The translations under genes were made by a program, and so were the position numbers. From positions 1,426,001-1,490,000 of the forward strand of contig NC_015186.1 in assembly GCF_000202835.1 (NCBI RefSeq): a stretch of DNA of 64,000 bases, given 5' to 3'. Position 1 is the stretch's first letter, and each line of letters opens with the position of its first letter. Positions 55,046 to 64,000 of the stretch are shown in pieces. This stretch comes from Acidiphilium multivorum AIU301 (lineage in GTDB: Bacteria > Pseudomonadota > Alphaproteobacteria > Acetobacterales > Acetobacteraceae). Below the pieces are notes generated by a model that saw only the letters and a program-made list of their open reading frames with translations, had not been told where the DNA came from and ran no database searches.

Positions 55046-56446
55046 ATGGAACAGGTTCTGGACAGGACGGCAGCGCGACATACCGTGCTGGCGCGCATCG
55101 ACCGCCTGCCGCCATCGCGGCATCTGGTCGGGCTGGTCGGGCGTATCGCGGCCGGTGGCTGGTTCGAGTTCTATGAACTCTTCATGCCGGGCTTCATCTC
55201 GCTCGGCCTCGTGCGCGCGGGCATTTTCGTCGCGAAGCCCGGCAGCATGTTCGATCCGCACCTGTTTGCGAGCTTCCTCGCCAGCTTCTTCATCGGCATG
55301 CTGCTGAGCACGGCCGGGTTCGGCTTCATCTCCGACCGGTTCGGCCGGCGGGCGATCTTCGTCTATTCCATGGCCGTCTATTCGCTTGCGCAGCTGACCA
55401 TCGCCTTCCTGTCGAACCCCGCGGCGATTGATGCCGCGCGCTTCGTCGCCGGCCTCGCGGTCGGGATGCAGCTCATCAACAATGACAGCTTTCTGACCGA
55501 GCTCACGCCCCGCGCGGCCCGCGGGCGCTACATGGCGGCGTCGTTCATCTTCGTGCTCACCGCGATACCGGTGGCGGCCTTCCTCGCGGCCATGCTGGTT
55601 CCCGCGGCGCCGTTCGGCATCGCCGGCTGGCGCTGGGTGGTGGCGATCGGCGCCCTCAGCGGCGTGGTGGTCATGTTCGTTCAGCGCGGGCTTCCGGAAT
55701 CGCCGCGCTGGCTCGAAGTGCATGGCCGCTACGACGAGGCGGACCGCGTCGTCGCGGCGATCGAGGCGAGGATCGAGGCGGAAACCGGCAGGAAGCTGCC
55801 CGATCCCGTCGCCGATGTGCCCGACGCGACGGCCGCGAGCGGACACTGGAGCGAAATGTTTTCCTCCTTCTACCTGCCGCGCACGCTGATGATCTCGATC
55901 TTCCAGTTCGCGCAGACCATCGCGGTGTTCGGGTTTACCGCCTTCGTTCCGATGCTGCTGGTCAAACAGGGATTCACGATCATCCACTCGCTCTACTACA
56001 CGACGATGATCGTCCTGCTCGCGCCGGTCGGCGCGATCTGCGGCACGATCTTCGCGGAACGGATCGAGCGCAAGTGGCAGCTCGTCGGCACGGCGGTGCT
56101 GATCGGCGTGAGCGGCATCGCATTTGTCCACGCGCATACGGTGGCTCTGGTGATCATCAGCGGCGCGCTGATCGCGCTCGGAAACAACTGGATGATCGCG
56201 ATTTTCCATCCCTATGCGGCGGAGCTGTTTCCAACCCGCATCCGCGCGCGAGCCGTGGGCTTTACCTTCGCCTGGAGCCGCGTGAGTTCGATCTTCATCG
56301 GCTACTGGGTCGCCGACCTGCTGGCGGGATTCGGCCCGGCCGGGGTGTTCGTGATGATCGGCCTCGGCATGCTGGCGATCATCCTTTCGGTCGGCCTGTT
56401 CGGCCCGCGGACGAACGGGCAGAGCCTGGAAATCCTGTCTCCCTGA
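55046..56446 (+). CDS. MFS transporter, probably for an organic acid
   Basis: A 466-residue major-facilitator protein with about 12 membrane helices. It has the loop 2-3 signature GFISDRFGRRAIFVYSM and the repeat PESPRWLEVHGRYDEADRVV between helices 6 and 7, which places it with the sugar/metabolite-H+ symporter group (SP/AAHS-like). AGGAGG precedes the ATG at 55046, 60 bases after mmgE. The operon context suggests uptake of the acid handled by the PrpF, MmgE and dehydrogenase proteins. The N-terminal residues GGWFEFYELFMPG are like those of aromatic/organic acid transporters. Confidence 0.87.
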   Translation: MEQVLDRTAARHTVLARIDRLPPSRHLVGLVGRIAAGGWFEFYELFMPGFISLGLVRAGIFVAKPGSMFDPHLFASFLASFFIGMLLSTAGFGFISDRFGRRAIFVYSMAVYSLAQLTIAFLSNPAAIDAARFVAGLAVGMQLINNDSFLTELTPRAARGRYMAASFIFVLTAIPVAAFLAAMLVPAAPFGIAGWRWVVAIGALSGVVVMFVQRGLPESPRWLEVHGRYDEADRVVAAIEARIEAETGRKLPDPVADVPDATAASGHWSEMFSSFYLPRTLMISIFQFAQTIAVFGFTAFVPMLLVKQGFTIIHSLYYTTMIVLLAPVGAICGTIFAERIERKWQLVGTAVLIGVSGIAFVHAHTVALVIISGALIALGNNWMIAIFHPYAAELFPTRIRARAVGFTFAWSRVSSIFIGYWVADLLAGFGPAGVFVMIGLGMLAIILSVGLFGPRTNGQSLEILSP

Positions 56447-56477
56447 ACCCAAAACTGCAAAGAAGGCAATCGAGATA

Positions 56478-57539
56478 ATGAAGATCGGCATACTCAACGG
56501 CGACGATATCGGGCATGAAATCGTGCCGGAGGCTGTCAGGGTCATGCAGGCCGCCGCGGCCCGGACCGGGCTCGCGATCGAGTGGCAGGATATCCCGATC
56601 GGCCGGGCGGCGCTTGACAGCCTGGGTTCCACCCTGCCGGACGGAACCATCGAGCGGCTCGACGCCCTGGATGGGTGGCTGCTTGGCCCGATCGGGCACA
56701 TGGCCTATCCGAAGATACCTGAGGCGATCAACCCGCATCCGCTGCTGCGCAAGCATTTCGACCTGTTCGCGAATATCAGGCCGGTGAAGTCCCATGCCGC
56801 GCTGCCCTGCCTGCATCAGGGCGTCGATCTCGTCATCGTCAGGGAAAACAACGAGGGCTTCCAGCCGGACCGCAACGTCGTCGCCGGTTCGGGCGAGTTT
56901 CGGCCAACGCCGGACGTGACGATCTCCGTGCGGGTCATCACCCGGAACGGGTCATCGAAAGTCGCGCGGGCGGCATTCGAACTGGCACGGGCGCGCCGCC
57001 GGCATCTGACCGCCGTGCACAAGGACACCGTGTTCAAGCTCGGTTGCGGCATGTTCGCCGAGGAATGTCGCAGGCTGGCGGCGGAATATCCCGATGTGAC
57101 CTATGACGAGGCAATCGTCGACACGTTTGCGATGCGCCTGGTGATGACCCCGCAGCGCTACGACGTCGTCGTGACCACGAACATGTTCGGCGACATCCTG
57201 ACCGACGAGGCCGCCGGCCTGGTCGGCGGTCTCGGGATGGCGGCAGGCCTGTGCGCCGGGCCGCGCCATGCGATGGCGCAGGCGACACACGGTTCCGCAC
57301 CTGACATCGCAGGGCGCGGGATCGCCAATCCCTATGCAATGATCATGTCAGGCCAGATGCTGCTCGACTGGCTCGGCCGCCGCCATGCCGAACCCGCGGC
57401 AACCGCCGCGGCGCACCTGATCGAGCAGGCCGTGGCAAACGTGATCGAGGGGCGCCGCGCGCTGACCCCCGATCTGGGAGGTCAGGGGACGACCGCAGGC
57501 ATGGGCTCGGCGATTATCGAGGCGATGACCGAGAGTTGA
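56478..57539 (+). CDS. Isocitrate/isopropylmalate-dehydrogenase-family enzyme, unknown substrate
   Basis: A 353-residue beta-decarboxylating dehydrogenase: GILNGDDIGHEIVPEA at the start, the substrate-site stretch LVIVRENNEGFQPDRNVV, KDTVFKLGCGMFAEECRRLA, metal aspartates in EAIVDTFAMRLVMTPQRYDVVVTTNMFGDILTDEAAGLVGG, and the nucleotide site HGSAPDIAGRGIANP. The REN-N-EG loop does not fit leuB (RELTGG), icd or the tartrate/D-malate dehydrogenases (RENTEG) exactly, so the substrate cannot be given. HGSAPDIAG favours NAD+ over NADP+. It is the last gene of the operon and would oxidise a 2-hydroxyacid made by the preceding steps. Confidence 0.85.
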   Translation: MKIGILNGDDIGHEIVPEAVRVMQAAAARTGLAIEWQDIPIGRAALDSLGSTLPDGTIERLDALDGWLLGPIGHMAYPKIPEAINPHPLLRKHFDLFANIRPVKSHAALPCLHQGVDLVIVRENNEGFQPDRNVVAGSGEFRPTPDVTISVRVITRNGSSKVARAAFELARARRRHLTAVHKDTVFKLGCGMFAEECRRLAAEYPDVTYDEAIVDTFAMRLVMTPQRYDVVVTTNMFGDILTDEAAGLVGGLGMAAGLCAGPRHAMAQATHGSAPDIAGRGIANPYAMIMSGQMLLDWLGRRHAEPAATAAAHLIEQAVANVIEGRRALTPDLGGQGTTAGMGSAIIEAMTES

Positions 57540-57563: not shown

Positions 57564-59348
57564 CTATCCGGCGTCCTGCCCCTCCTCGCTCAGGCGGAGC
57601 GCTGCGTTCACGAGCGCAACATGCGTGAATGCCTGGGGGAAATTGCCGATCTGTCGCCGGTTGACCGTGTCGTACTCCTCGGCGAACAATCCGACGTCGT
57701 TGCGCAACGCCACCAGCTTTTCGAACAGGGCTTCGGCATCCGCGCGCCGGCCCATCATCACGTAATTGTCGACCAGCCAGAAACTGCACGCGAGAAAGAC
57801 ACCTTCATTGCCGGTCAATCCATCCTTTCCTGTTTCGGTGTCATAACGGCGCACGAATCCATCTTGCAGAAGATGCCGTTCGATCGCGGCGACGGTGCCA
57901 ATGATGCGCGGATCGTCGGGCGGTAGAAAGCCGACGATCGGCAGCAGCAGCAGGCTCGCATCCAGCGCCTTCGAGCCATAGGCCTGAACGAAGCTGTTCA
58001 TCTCCGCGTCGAAGCCGTTCTGGCAGACCTGATCGTGAATCTGCTGGCGGATCGCGCGCCAGTGTTCGACCGGACCGTCGTAGCCGTAATCCTCGACGGA
58101 GCGGATCGCCCGGTCGAACGCGACCCAGGCCATCACTTTGGAGTGGACGAATTGCTGGCGGCCGCCACGCACTTCCCAGATACCCTCGTCCGGCTCGGCC
58201 CAGATCTTCTCCAGGGTTTCAAGCAGGACGAGGCGGATGTTCCAGCTGTTCTCATCCCGCCGCACCCCGCCGACATGTGCCTGATAGAGAGCATTCATCA
58301 GTTCACCGAAGACGTCGAGCTGACGCTGGCCCGCGGCCGCATTGCCGGCACGGACCGGCTTTGAACCTTCATAGCCTGGCAACCAGTCGATCTCGCGTTC
58401 GGTCAGAAGGCGCTCGCCGGCCACGCCATACATGATCTGGATGTCCTCGGCACCACCGGCGATCGCACGATCGAGCCAGCGCGACCACGCATGTGCCTCG
58501 TCCCGGTGCCCCGCATTCATCAGCGCCTGGAGTGTGAAACTCGCATCGCGCAGCCAGCAGAACCGGTAATCCCAGTTGCGCTCGCCGCCGAGTTGCTCGG
58601 GCAGCGAAGACGTCGCCGCCGCTATGATTCCGCCGGTTTCCCAATGTGTCAGGGCCTTGAGCGTGATGAGCGACCGCCGCACGATTTCGGCCCAGCGCCC
58701 ACTGACCGGCGCGCGCTGCGCCCAGCTGCGCCAGCGGTCTGACGCCTGCTCGATTCCCATTTTCATATCGAAACGATGTGGCACCCGCTTGTGCGAGGGC
58801 AACCATTCGAGGCCGAACAGGAATTCCTCACCCGCCTCGATTGTGAATTGCGCTTCCGTGTGCTGATTGCGGCCGGTCATCGGCACGTCGCCCCAGACCA
58901 CGACCATGTCGGGTCCGGCGACCGCCACGAAACCTTCATGGCCGGGCAGCCGCTGCACCCAGGGTACGACGCGGCCGAAGCCGAATCTGAACACGATGTC
59001 CAGCCGCATCTCCACTCGTCCGGACAGGCCGCTCACCATGCGGACCAGCCGCGTGGTGTCATGCGGGTGGGGGACCATGCAGTCGGTCACCCGCACCACG
59101 CCGTCATCGATATGAAAGTCGGTTTCAAGCACAAGGGTCTCGGGGCGGTAACGCCGCTCCACCCGCAGGGGCGATGCAGCCGGTGCGATCAGCCACCGCC
59201 CGTTCTCGCGCGTTCCAAGCAGCGACGCGAAGCACGGATCGGAATCGAACCGTGGCAGACAAAGAAAATCGATCGAGCCGTCCTTGCCGACAAGGGCCGC
59301 TGTCTGCCGGTCTCCGATGATTGCGTAATCCTCGATTCTCAGGCTCAT
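57564..59348 (-). CDS. Glycoside hydrolase family 15 protein (glucoamylase/trehalase-like)
   Basis: A 594-residue cytosolic GH15 enzyme: N-terminal beta-sandwich (RIEDYAIIGDRQTAALVGKDGSIDFLCLPRFDS) and C-terminal (alpha/alpha)6 barrel (GGERNWDYRFCWLRDASFTLQALM). Candidate catalytic glutamates lie in WAEPDEGIWEVRGG and LFAEEYD. Members are glucoamylases, glucodextranases or, in mycobacteria and some archaea, trehalases. It is the last gene of a pentose-phosphate operon, suggesting release of glucose from trehalose or a maltosaccharide for entry via glucose-6-phosphate. No signal peptide is seen. The exact substrate is not decided. Confidence 0.88.
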   Translation of the reverse strand: MSLRIEDYAIIGDRQTAALVGKDGSIDFLCLPRFDSDPCFASLLGTRENGRWLIAPAASPLRVERRYRPETLVLETDFHIDDGVVRVTDCMVPHPHDTTRLVRMVSGLSGRVEMRLDIVFRFGFGRVVPWVQRLPGHEGFVAVAGPDMVVVWGDVPMTGRNQHTEAQFTIEAGEEFLFGLEWLPSHKRVPHRFDMKMGIEQASDRWRSWAQRAPVSGRWAEIVRRSLITLKALTHWETGGIIAAATSSLPEQLGGERNWDYRFCWLRDASFTLQALMNAGHRDEAHAWSRWLDRAIAGGAEDIQIMYGVAGERLLTEREIDWLPGYEGSKPVRAGNAAAGQRQLDVFGELMNALYQAHVGGVRRDENSWNIRLVLLETLEKIWAEPDEGIWEVRGGRQQFVHSKVMAWVAFDRAIRSVEDYGYDGPVEHWRAIRQQIHDQVCQNGFDAEMNSFVQAYGSKALDASLLLLPIVGFLPPDDPRIIGTVAAIERHLLQDGFVRRYDTETGKDGLTGNEGVFLACSFWLVDNYVMMGRRADAEALFEKLVALRNDVGLFAEEYDTVNRRQIGNFPQAFTHVALVNAALRLSEEGQDAG

Positions 59349-59363: not shown

Positions 59364-60638
59364 CTAGTTTGCTGAAACCTGGCCAGCCTGCAGCGACCAC
59401 ATGATGCTCCGCACGATGCCGACGGGAGACTCATCGATCGAGACGACAATCGCATCCTCTCCGGCCTGCGGCGGCTCGAGCGCCGCGAGCTGGCTGTCGA
59501 GCAGGGATGCCGGCATGAAGTGACCGCGCCGTGCGGCGATGCGCGCGGCCAGCAGATCGCGCGATCCATCGAGATGCACCAGCGTGAACGGGCCAGCACC
59601 GCCGCGCACCAGATCGCGATAACGCCGCGTCAGAAGAGAGCTGACAATGACGCCGCCGCATCGTCTCGTCCGCCATTCCGCAAGGCGCATGGCGATGCGA
59701 TGCAGCCAGGGCATCCTGTCTTCATCGTCGAGCGGACGGCCGGAGCGCATTTTCTCCCGGTTCGACTCCGGATGCAGATCGTCGCCATCGCAGAACGGCA
59801 CGCCCAGAAGTTCCGCCAGCAAAAGCCCGATCGTGGATTTGCCGGATGCGGAAACACCCATCACGGCGATCAGTGGCGGAATGTTCGGCTTCGGCAGGCC
59901 GAGGCAACGCAGCGTGGCCGCGGCGGGTGCGAGGCCGGCCGCGGAGACCGCGTCGCCATCGAACTGGCGGGTCGAGCCATCGGGATAGCCAATGATCGCG
60001 CAGGCGGAACCCGACAGGAAGAGGCCGGTGCCGACAACGCCGGCAATCGAGCGGAGGGCAGACTCGACGGCTTCGGGCACGATGCCTTTCGGCATGGTGC
60101 AATCGGCAATGAAGTGGCCGCCATCCGAAACGAAGGGACTGCCGGCATTCGCGCGCAGAACGGGCGCAAGATCCAGTTCGGCGAGCCTGGCACAGGTGCG
60201 GTCCGCGCCATGGCGGACGATCTCGACTGGCAGTTTCGAATGCGCGCCGAGCCGTGTCACCAGCTTGCTCCGGTCGGCGATGACGACAAAGCGCCGTGCC
60301 GATTGCGCCACCAGCTTTTCCCGCAGCAGGGCACCACCCAGCCCCTTGATCAGGCGGAGCGTTCCGAACTCCACCTCATCGGCTCCGTCAACCGCAAGAT
60401 CGAGGGAACCATCGAGCGGCACGAGGCGCAGGCCGAGGAACTCCGCCCTGGCTGCCGTGAGATCGGATGTCGCGACGCATTCGATGTCGAGCCCTTCGGC
60501 GCGGACGCGTGCGCCGAGCTGATCGATGAAATGGGCGGCGGTTGACCCCGTGCCGAGGCCGACGCGCATTCCGGATTCGACGAGACCGACGGCCAGCCGC
60601 GCGGCCGCACGCTTGCCATTTTCGAAATCGGTTCCCAT
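59364..60638 (-). CDS. rpiA-gntK: Fused ribose-5-phosphate isomerase A / gluconokinase
   Basis: One 424-residue frame with two enzymes. Residues ~5-225 are RpiA: VGLGTGSTAAHFI, the DGADE active-site aspartates (D84, D87), and IKGLGGALLREK with lysine and glutamate. Residues ~256-424 are a GntK-type gluconate kinase: Walker A GVSASGKST, PFCDGDDLHPESNREKM, DDEDRMPWLHRI and the ARRGHFMPASLLDSQL substrate loop. The fusion would make 6-phosphogluconate from gluconate and isomerise ribulose-5-phosphate, on both sides of Gnd. I chose the ATG at 60638, which has AAGGGGG in front; an earlier ATG at 60665 overlaps pgl. Confidence 0.9.
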   Translation of the reverse strand: MGTDFENGKRAAARLAVGLVESGMRVGLGTGSTAAHFIDQLGARVRAEGLDIECVATSDLTAARAEFLGLRLVPLDGSLDLAVDGADEVEFGTLRLIKGLGGALLREKLVAQSARRFVVIADRSKLVTRLGAHSKLPVEIVRHGADRTCARLAELDLAPVLRANAGSPFVSDGGHFIADCTMPKGIVPEAVESALRSIAGVVGTGLFLSGSACAIIGYPDGSTRQFDGDAVSAAGLAPAAATLRCLGLPKPNIPPLIAVMGVSASGKSTIGLLLAELLGVPFCDGDDLHPESNREKMRSGRPLDDEDRMPWLHRIAMRLAEWRTRRCGGVIVSSLLTRRYRDLVRGGAGPFTLVHLDGSRDLLAARIAARRGHFMPASLLDSQLAALEPPQAGEDAIVVSIDESPVGIVRSIMWSLQAGQVSAN

Positions 60639-60652
60639 GCGATGTGCCCCCT

Positions 60653-61390
60653 TCAGTCCGCCCATCGTCCGGCGGCATCGCGATCCGCGAGCCAGATCAG
60701 GCGTCCGACCGGCCTGAGGCGGGCGGCGGGCACGTCACGATCCGAACCGCTCAGGACGCGATCGAGCATGTCGCGCTTGCCGGCGCCGGAGACGAGAAAC
60801 ACCACGACCCGCGCGCTTTCGAGGATCGGGTAGGTCAGCGTGACGCGCGCTTCCGGGCGTCCCTTGGTCACCGGAATCACCCAGCGTTGCCGTTCACCGA
60901 GCAGATCGTCCTGACCGGGCAGAAGTGACGCGGTATGACCGTCATCGCCCATGCCAAGCAGGCATAGATCAAAGAATGGCCTCGAAGGATCGAGAGTCGC
61001 TGCGCCATGGACCTCGGCCAGATCCCGCTGATATGCCGCGGCGGCCTGATCGACCGTCATCCCGTCGAACGGCACCTGATGCAGGCGGGGCGCCGCCGGC
61101 AGATGCGCGGTCAGGGCGTCGCGGATCATTCGGACATTGCTCTTGTCGTCATCCGGCGCGACGAACCGCTCATCGCCGAGAACGAGATCGATGCGTGTCC
61201 AGTCGATGCTGTCGCGCCAGGGCGCAGCAGCCAGCCGTTCGTACAATGCCCGCGGCGTCGATCCGCCGGCGAGGCCGGCCACGAACCGGCCGCGCGCGGC
61301 GGCGGCCTCTTCCGCAAAGAGGCGCGCTCCGTATTCGGCGAAGGCCTTCGCATCGGGCACGACGACGAGTTCGCCACGCACAGGTTTCAT
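60653..61390 (-). CDS. pgl: 6-phosphogluconolactonase
   Basis: Hydrolyses 6-phosphogluconolactone to 6-phosphogluconate. A 245-residue protein of the NagB-fold (DevB/Pgl) type, with GLAGGSTPRALYERLA, WTRIDLVLGDERFVAPDDDKSNVRMI and LCLLGMGDDGHTASLLPG. Its ATG overlaps the stop of the HAD gene by one base (TGATG at 61390). It sits between zwf and the RpiA-GntK fusion gene, as expected of the oxidative branch. Confidence 0.95.
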   Translation of the reverse strand: MKPVRGELVVVPDAKAFAEYGARLFAEEAAAARGRFVAGLAGGSTPRALYERLAAAPWRDSIDWTRIDLVLGDERFVAPDDDKSNVRMIRDALTAHLPAAPRLHQVPFDGMTVDQAAAAYQRDLAEVHGAATLDPSRPFFDLCLLGMGDDGHTASLLPGQDDLLGERQRWVIPVTKGRPEARVTLTYPILESARVVVFLVSGAGKRDMLDRVLSGSDRDVPAARLRPVGRLIWLADRDAAGRWAD

Positions 61391-62208
61391 CAGCGTCTCC
61401 CCTCGAGCACGAAGCGCATCATCGCTTCGGCAAAGCCATCTTCCTCATTGCCGCGTGTGGCATGATCCGCCTTCCGCTTGACACTGTCATCGGCATTGCC
61501 CATCGCGATGGAAAGGCCGCTGCGGGCAAACATGGCAACATCGTTCGGCATGTCGCCGATGGTCGCGATACGCTCGTGCGGGATGCCGAGCTCGCTCGAC
61601 ATCGCATCCACCACCGCGCCCTTGTTCGCATGTGCGCTGGTGATATCGAGATAATAGGGCTGCGAGCAGTCCGCCGTCACGCCGTCACCGAACGCCTTGT
61701 GCGCGGCGGCAAGGCAGGATTTCATACGCTCGGCGTCATCGGTCACCCCGACGATCTTCACGACGCCATGAAGAGACGATACATCGTAGCGCTCGACGGT
61801 CTCCGGCTCGAACGCGACGGTACGCTGTTCGCGATCGACATGCGGCGCCGCGGCATCGCGGACCAGCCAGCGATCATGCGTGTAGACCCAGGCATCGAGG
61901 CCATGGTCATCGAGCAGATCGATGGCCTTGCCGATCACGTCGTCCTGCAGGTCGTGCGAGGCGACGACGCGGCTGAAATCGGGGGCCATCATCACGCCAC
62001 CGTTGAACCCGGCCAGCGGCGTGTCGATGGCGAGCGGTTCGCTCAGCATCCGCATGCCGCGCGGCGGCCGCCCGCTGGTGATCGCGAAGCGGATGCCCGC
62101 CTCGCGAAGCGCATCGACCGCCTGCTTCGTCGCCGCCGTCAGGCGCTTGTCATTGGTGACCAGGGTGCCATCGACATCGGCAATCACGAGATCGACCGCG
62201 CGGCTCAT
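61390..62208 (-). CDS. HAD-superfamily Cof-type phosphatase
   Basis: A 272-residue sugar-phosphate or cofactor phosphatase of HAD subfamily IIB. Motif I DVDGTLVTND holds the nucleophile aspartate, motif II is TSGRPP, and motif IV is IGDMPNDVAMF. The cap is of the C2 type. It is fully enclosed in the PPP operon, between zwf and pgl, and is linked to both by start-stop overlaps, so its substrate may be a pentose-phosphate intermediate or by-product; that is inference. Confidence 0.88.
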   Translation of the reverse strand: MSRAVDLVIADVDGTLVTNDKRLTAATKQAVDALREAGIRFAITSGRPPRGMRMLSEPLAIDTPLAGFNGGVMMAPDFSRVVASHDLQDDVIGKAIDLLDDHGLDAWVYTHDRWLVRDAAAPHVDREQRTVAFEPETVERYDVSSLHGVVKIVGVTDDAERMKSCLAAAHKAFGDGVTADCSQPYYLDITSAHANKGAVVDAMSSELGIPHERIATIGDMPNDVAMFARSGLSIAMGNADDSVKRKADHATRGNEEDGFAEAMMRFVLEGRR

Positions 62209-63809
62209 TGCCCGCTCTCCGCCGGATCGAGCGCGACCGGTCGCCAGCGCCGCGTCGGCTCATCATCCGCAAGCAGCTTGTCCGCCGCATCCGGTCCCGC
62301 GCTGCCGCTGCGGTAGTTCGGGAAATCGGCGGCTCGGTCTCTGCCCCAGGCTTCCAGAACACGGCCGACCACACGCCACGTCTCCTCGACCATGTCTGCC
62401 CGCTGGAACAGGGTCTGATCGCCGATCATGCAATCATACAGAAGGGTTTCGTAGCCGACGTTCGGTTCCGGTTCGAAACGGTCACGATATCTGAACTGCA
62501 TCCGGGCGGGCGCCAGCCGCATGGTCTGGCCGGGTTGCTTCACCTCGAACTCGATGGCGATGCCTTCATCGGGCTGGATGCGCAGAACCAGCCAGTTCGG
62601 CGGCAGGCCATCGAGCGATGCGCCCTGGAACGGCGCAAGCGGCTGCTTGCGGAAACGGATGGCGATTTCGGTCATCCGCTCGGAAAGATGCTTGCCGGTG
62701 CGAATGTAGAACGGCACGCCGGCCCAGCGCCAGTTGTCGATGGCAAGCCGCAACGCGACATAGGTTTCGGTATTCGAGTCCGCAGCAACACCTGGCTCCT
62801 CGCGATAGCCGCGCGCCGATTGGCCGGACACCTCGCCCGCGCCATACTGGCCACGCACGGCATCCTCCGGACGCAAGGTGCGGATGGCGGAGAAGAGTTC
62901 CAGCTTCTTGTCGCGGATCGCCTCGGCCCGCACACCAACCGGCGGTTCCATCGCCACCATGGCGACGAGCTGGAAGACGTGGTTCGGCACCATGTCGCGC
63001 AACGCGCCGGCCTGCTCGTAGAATTTCGCCCGTCCCTCGACGCCGACCGTCTCGGCGACGGTGATCTGCACATGGTCGATTCGATCGCGATTCCAGAGCG
63101 GATCAAAGATTCCGTTGCCGAACCGCAACGCCATGATGTTCTGAACGGTTTCCTTGCCAAGAAAATGGTCGATCCGGTAGATCTGCCGCTCGTCGACCAC
63201 GCTCAGAAGCCGTCGGTTCAGGTCCTGAGCCGATGCAAGGTCGTGGCCGAACGGCTTTTCGATGATGATCCGCCGCCACGTCCCCCCGCCCGACTCATCC
63301 TCGGTCACGAGGCCGGCCTTGCCCAGATGCTCGACGATCGGTGCGAAGAACCGGTCGGCCACCGCAAGGTAGAACAGCCGGTTGCCGCCCGTGCCTTGCG
63401 AATTTTCGATCGCTTCGAGGCGGGACTTCAGGGTTTCGTAGAATTCGTCCCTGGTGAAATCACCCTGAACGTAATCGGCATGCGCCGTCAGGCGATCCCA
63501 TGCGGCGTCGTCAACTTGCTTGATCTGGTCTTCGGCTTCCGGATCGCCGACGAAGCTCTCCAGCATCTCGCGCAGCGAGCCGGTCCAGTGCTTTGCGTCG
63601 AGGTCGGCGATATCGGCGCCAAGCAGGCCGAACTTCTCGGGCACCAGGCCGGTATTCGCAAGATTGTAGAGCGCCGGCACCAGCAGCCGCTTGGTCAGAT
63701 CCCCCGCGGCACCGAAAATCACGACGCTGCAGGGGCCCGCGGGGGAGGCCGAGGCGGCGCCGGAGGATCCGGCCTCTGACCGGAGCGGGTGTTTTGCCAG
63801 CAGGTTCAT
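62205..63809 (-). CDS. zwf: Glucose-6-phosphate 1-dehydrogenase
   Basis: First step of the oxidative pentose-phosphate (and Entner-Doudoroff) pathway, producing NAD(P)H and 6-phosphogluconolactone. The 534 residues include [21 protein letters not shown] (nucleotide-binding fold), [12 protein letters not shown], the active-site block [22 protein letters not shown], and the C-terminal [20 protein letters not shown]. The start ATG overlaps the gnd stop by ATGA (63806-63809), and its own stop overlaps the HAD start by ATGA. Confidence 0.97.
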
Positions 63810-64000
63810 GCGCCACCTCCCTGCTTGGCAGCAGCCGGTCCCTGCTCGACATGACCGCCGAAGCCCTGTCGCATGGCAGACAGGATCTTCTCGCCGAACG
63901 TATGATCGAGCCGGGAGCGGAACCGCGCATAGAGTGCGGCGGTGAGCACATCGGCCGGAACCGCCTCCTCGATCGCGGCGTTGATCGTCCAGCGTCCCTC
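63806..64000 (-). CDS. gnd: 6-phosphogluconate dehydrogenase, C-terminal end (partial)
   Basis: The last 64 codons of a gene that continues beyond the window edge. The frame reads [20 protein letters not shown], then [20 protein letters not shown] and [11 protein letters not shown] before a short tail and TGA. This matches the C-terminal end of the decarboxylating (GndA/YqeC, NAD-type short form) 6-phosphogluconate dehydrogenase. The stop overlaps the zwf start. It gives ribulose-5-phosphate, which the RpiA-GntK fusion then isomerises. No start codon is in the window. Confidence 0.9.

Follow-up and report, generated by a model that had tools for sequence, protein, structure and literature searches.

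A ribose-5-phosphate isomerase–gluconokinase fusion in the oxidative pentose-phosphate operon of Acidiphilium

The window, a 64,000-nucleotide stretch of DNA from Acidiphilium multivorum AIU301, contains on its minus strand a frame, uninterrupted by stops, that encodes ribose-5-phosphate isomerase (RpiA) and a gluconokinase (GntK) in one protein (Table 1). The fusion is real, conserved and lineage-restricted. We consider it likely that the product is a bifunctional enzyme that was born of an in-frame join between two operon neighbours, rpiA and gntK, and most likely both halves would be active as their families are. The protein consists of two ordinary enzymes of one operon, and a changed GntK signature is the only feature that could raise its interest. 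It adds to oxidative pentose-phosphate metabolism a two-enzyme fusion for which we found no published description among open-licence PMC papers.

Table 1 Features of the rpiA::gntK locus, in window coordinates.
Feature	Position	Strand	Evidence and remarks
rpiA::gntK fusion gene	59364..60638	-	424 aa + stop; open frame, matched in 8/13 genus genomes
AAGGGGG, ribosome-binding-like site	60647..60653	-	sequence; precedes ATG 60638
RpiA domain, residues 9-222	59973..60614	-	TIGR00021; D84, D87, K98, E107, K125 retained
Linker, residues 223-254	59877..59972	-	predicted short helices, pLDDT about 60-70 over most
GntK/IdnK-type gluconokinase domain, residues 258-408	59415..59867	-	TIGR01313
GntK P-loop GVSASGKS, residues 261-268, with G264A	59835..59858	-	A in 8/8 genus fusions
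SSLLT, residues 333-337, replacing CSAL[K/R/A]	59628..59642	-	8/8 genus fusions, 0/43 others
GH15 trehalase-like glycoside hydrolase	57564..59348	-	Glyco_hydro_15 293.5 bits, TREH_N 61.1 bits
pgl, 6-phosphogluconolactonase	60653..61390	-	TIGR01198 181.5 bits; upstream of fusion
Cof-type HAD-IIB phosphatase, zwf/pgl interval	61390..62208	-	TIGR00099 179.7 bits
zwf, glucose-6-phosphate dehydrogenase	62205..63809	-	TIGR00871 587.9 bits
gnd 3' end (6-phosphogluconate dehydrogenase, short NAD type)	63806..64000	-	rest beyond window; PF00393 match

Both halves pass the cut-offs of their curated NCBIfam models. The N-terminal half matches the rpiA model at 220.1 bits (cut-off 126.4) over positions 2–217 of 218, and the Pfam family Rib_5-P_isom_A (PF06026) at 164 bits. 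The C-terminal half matches the gluconokinase model near full length (165.8 bits against a cut-off of 113.75; positions 2–154 of 164), while in Pfam it falls into general P-loop families and nothing more specific. These matches bear out the original prediction that the two enzymes share one protein, and its coordinates and domain limits were right within a few residues. The mechanically called ORF begins upstream, at 60,665, and has 433 aa. A search of solved structures leads from the RpiA half to 1uj4 (E = 2.4e-39) and from the kinase half to the gluconate kinases 3t61 and 1knq. The fusion is the sole RpiA and the sole GntK of the whole genome, which also encodes an RpiB-type isomerase. The practical bearing is chiefly on annotation, where naming the gene after its better-scoring half would hide the sole gluconokinase of the fusion-bearing genomes.

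The RpiA half resembles its family over its full length, in catalytic residues and in fold, and differs from it by the extra C-terminal kinase domain and by drift. When the fusions of eight Acidiphilium genomes were compared with 64 other RpiAs, 45 of 53 conserved columns were unchanged in all eight and the remaining eight had drifted; all five residues listed for this domain in Table 1 are retained in every fusion. The first four of these we take to correspond to the E. coli catalytic residues D81, D84, K94 and E103. For the kinase half, the reference was the 39 columns that are at least 90% conserved among 43 other GntKs, and 35 of these are unchanged in all eight fusions. G266, K267, D286, H289, D305, D307, R308, R366, R370 and H373 are retained in 8/8, and P302 in 7/8. 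Like the GntK/IdnK family, this half keeps the P-loop lysine, the acidic and basic residues and the fold; it differs in standing behind RpiA and in two places in its sequence. One is the P-loop substitution G264A (G in 41/43 other GntKs). The other is a loop in which all eight fusions carry C333S (C in 43/43 others), A335L (A in 42/43) and T at position 337, which is K in 38 of the others, R in three and A in two, so that SSLLT stands where 42 of the 43 others read CSAL and the typical motif is CSALK. CSAL[K/R/A] is a regularity seen among these 43 proteins, not a published definition or a defining feature of TIGR01313, and we count SSLLT as a departure within the curated GntK family; a separate GntK elsewhere in the family Acetobacteraceae, that of locus L027, reads CSLLK. 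Of the active-site motifs originally called intact in both domains, those of RpiA are so and those of GntK mostly are, but the claim fails for SSLLT and G264A. Among open-licence PMC papers we found nothing usable on the substrate-contact residues of GntK, and PMC4045858 offers no data at the level of single residues.

A structure model of the fusion, built from seven sequences, has a mean pLDDT of 84.6 and a pTM of 0.61, with a weak stretch at about 230–250, and it can be taken as reliable for the domain folds but not for the relative placement of the domains. In the model, residues 3–228 superimpose on RpiA 1uj4 (Z 33.4, rmsd 1.4, 223 aligned), and the kinase half superimposes on 4eun (residues 253–417; Z 23.3, rmsd 1.4, 165 aligned) and on 1knq (residues 252–418; Z 22.0, rmsd 2.3, 167 aligned).

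If the altered loop reflects a change of substrate, the kinase half would be a GntK-family kinase acting on a polyol or on a sugar acid other than gluconate, a change that would then mark the fusion. The uniform SSLLT speaks for this, as does the absence of a GntP-type gluconate permease from all 13 Acidiphilium genomes, and we counted on the same side that the loop presumably corresponds to the one on the substrate side in shikimate-kinase-type folds. We nevertheless regard a changed substrate as unlikely, since the changes in the conserved columns are few and conservative, the TIGR01313 score remains well above its cut-off, the CSLLK of L027 is a variant in a separate GntK, and 5/43 others have R or A in place of the K. 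We likewise doubt that repeated joining of the two genes was selected, fixing the ratio of, or coupling, gluconate entry and pentose-phosphate exit around 6-phosphogluconate dehydrogenase (Gnd), and that SSLLT marks a kinase half retuned in this genus to another substrate or to cross-talk with the RpiA half.

A kinase half devoid of catalytic activity, kept as a structural element of RpiA or as its ATP sensor, is very improbable. In its favour, the P-loop position and the motif are altered, and five of the 13 genus genomes have no GntK over the cut-off; against this, K267, D286, H289, D305, D307, R308, R366, R370 and H373 are kept in every fusion, and the GntK dN/dS is not above that of RpiA in most pairs. 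Pairwise counts of the Nei-Gojobori type, which are rough at the distances compared, gave dN/dS values of 0.07–0.27 for RpiA over seven pairs among the fusions, 0.06–0.29 for GntK in six of the seven (the seventh being saturated) and 0.20–0.39 for the linker, taken as residues 222–254, in all seven. The linker is identical in length across the eight fusions, with no stops and no indels. Purifying selection acts on both domains and on the linker.

Two genes joined by a sequencing, assembly or frame error can be dismissed as an explanation, for although several family members outside the genus carry rpiA and gntK in the same frame, one or two stops apart, both domains lie in a single open frame in 8/13 Acidiphilium genomes, AIU301 included (60–100% identity), down to about 60% protein identity; this was also the outcome of checking for the frame correction into two genes that the original prediction had named as its refutation.

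Across the genus, GntK over the cut-off occurs in the same eight genomes, every time as the fused copy, and a second GntK over the cut-off is found in none of the 13. Three of the five GntK-less genomes (G002, G005 and G008) have the order pgl-rpiA-GH15 without gntK, and in the other two (G001 and G009) rpiA, gntK and GH15 are all absent after pgl. G001 and G009 have two RpiB-type matches apiece; the other genus genomes have one or none. In a quick tree, the RpiAs of the first three branch as sister to the eight fused ones (SH-aLRT support 94 and 92), and no linker remnant is visible at their C-termini. These lineages may have shed the kinase half or may never have carried a fused gene.

The gene order in relatives indicates how the fusion could have arisen. 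In eight loci laid out from elsewhere in the family (L009, L012, L015, L016, L018, L019, L026 and L027), rpiA and gntK are adjacent but separate, in the order rpiA-gntK in seven and gntK-rpiA in L026, and pgl adjoins them in all except L027. In a further locus (L077, genome G357), which groups with Acidiphilium on the RpiA tree (support 97), the two genes lie in one frame with a lone TGA between them, followed by GGAGG and a GTG start, so loss of a single stop would fuse them. In published gene lists, Acetobacter pasteurianus 386B has separate, consecutively numbered genes for pgl, rpiA and gluconate kinase (PMC3751514), rpi and gluconokinase of Gluconobacter oxydans are GOX1708 and GOX1709 (PMC6191907), and G. 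xylinus has rpiA and one gntK under neighbouring locus tags (14185, 14180; PMC5908849). Given this adjacency, the fusion reads as a join of operon neighbours, the choice of partner following gene order. The original prediction had the fusion join gluconate entry to ribose-5-phosphate exit. As a purposeful link this is not supported: adjacency is the simplest reason for the pairing, and Gnd, whose step lies between the two reactions, is a separate protein.

A second fusion is present in another genus of the same family, g58, which we guess to be Acetobacter. There, RpiA and GntK lie in one frame in 12/49 genomes, 11 confirmed by pattern and the twelfth (L133), whose P-loop misses the pattern, by frame reading. 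It shares with the AIU301 protein both domains and their order, with 41–47% identity per domain, but its linker is longer, variable and dissimilar, and it retains CSALK. The GntK tree led to rejection of a single origin of all fusions (p-AU 5e-5); it was a quick tree in which the tested group was named only after a first tree had been seen; four rows (L035, L036, L037 and L082) were dropped before the test, and L088 and ten duplicate loci are excluded from the trees. The first tree, of 51 rows, likewise placed the Acidiphilium and g58 fusions apart. With the all-fusions-together tree rejected, the joining probably arose at least twice in the family. Fused and separate copies are intermixed within g58, where a fused copy (L085) is sister to a separate one (L089) and a separate copy (L086) sits among fused ones, and fusion or fission may have happened there more than once. 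With this second, apparently independent case, nature provides a replicate in which the roles of chance and selection in the fusion of operon neighbours can be compared.

Among the matches listed for 398 genomes sampled across the phylum, only AIU301 had both domains without a stop, and at least 18 of 395 genomes sampled across the order did (7 in Acidiphilium, 11 in g58); at most four candidates per genome were scored in both samples, and a fusion that has diverged may have escaped notice. In none of the 484 matching plasmid records did a single site span 80% of the query. The original statement that no characterised example was known agrees with our literature search, and the available part of PMC6558740 does not mention an RpiA-GntK fusion.

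We propose that the in-frame joining of rpiA and gntK, neighbours in an oxidative pentose-phosphate operon, took place in an ancestor shared by some members of the genus. In the resulting protein, the N-terminal half would interconvert ribulose-5-phosphate and ribose-5-phosphate, and the C-terminal half would convert gluconate to 6-phosphogluconate, which would then pass to Gnd or Edd, both encoded in AIU301. The route runs from gluconate through 6-phosphogluconate and Gnd to RpiA. Channelling between the halves is unlikely because neither one's product, by known chemistry, is the other's substrate, and Gnd, the product of a separate gene, intervenes. The benefit, if any, would rather be equal amounts of the two enzymes (a fixed stoichiometry) or shared assembly, and the fusion may bring no gain at all, the loss of a stop codon being tolerated in a tight operon. 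RpiA forms dimers and tetramers. Human GntK is a dimer according to the available part of PMC4045858, and, each half being from an oligomeric enzyme, the fusion may assemble through both. The protein would be made as a single chain. Within 40 codons before the P-loop, no start in the eight fusions has more than 4/6 matches to AGGAGG, and the sole start near the P-loop common to all eight is a methionine within the kinase's first strand, so a separate internal start for GntK is unsupported.

Several observations count against a bifunctional enzyme of this kind. SSLLT and the P-loop change could mean altered or weaker gluconate phosphorylation. RpiB-type genes are present in 12/13 genus genomes, so the RpiA activity may be redundant. 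The missing GntP permease and the five genomes without GntK weigh on the same side. In the genus, gnd is found in 12/13 genomes and edd over the cut-off in 10/13. Quinoprotein dehydrogenases that match the model of the membrane PQQ glucose dehydrogenase weakly, below its cut-off, occur in all eight genomes with GntK, whereas the five GntK-less ones have none. The pattern would suit a kinase supplied by sugar oxidation in the periplasm, but it is only a hint, since the five genomes are of smaller size, in part incomplete and not independent of one another.

The fusion gene lies in a tight minus-strand operon with the order tal::pgi-gnd-zwf-HAD-pgl-rpiA::gntK-GH15, separated from the pgl stop upstream by 14 bases and from GH15 downstream by 15. 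The two enzymes had been predicted to flank the 6-phosphogluconate dehydrogenase step, and gnd, zwf and pgl are indeed found directly upstream. In L074, gnd lies at 807–1811 (TIGR00872, 391.9 bits). Just beyond the window, upstream of gnd, is tal::pgi (L074:1931–4762, minus strand; 943 aa; NF007080, 1488 bits), so the operon holds two different enzyme fusions. Like rpiA::gntK, this transaldolase/phosphoglucose isomerase joins two central sugar-phosphate enzymes, but the enzymes are different and NF007080 is a recognised, named family.

The HAD phosphatase could have a metabolite-repair role against by-products that inhibit 6-phosphogluconate dehydrogenase, an idea prompted by the available part of PMC6449344. 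A HAD gene also stands beside pgl in nine fusion-less loci (L009, L012, L015, L016, L018, L019, L026, L075 and L076, the last two being those of G001 and G009). GH15 comes directly after the fusion in all eight genus loci. Its product has a trehalase-like N-terminal domain, yet at 384 against 820 bits it is far below the trehalase cut-offs. Convergent with the GH15 gene, on the plus strand at 55,046–57,539, an MFS transporter gene lies together with one for a dehydrogenase of the isocitrate/isopropylmalate type, which passes no curated NCBIfam cut-off.
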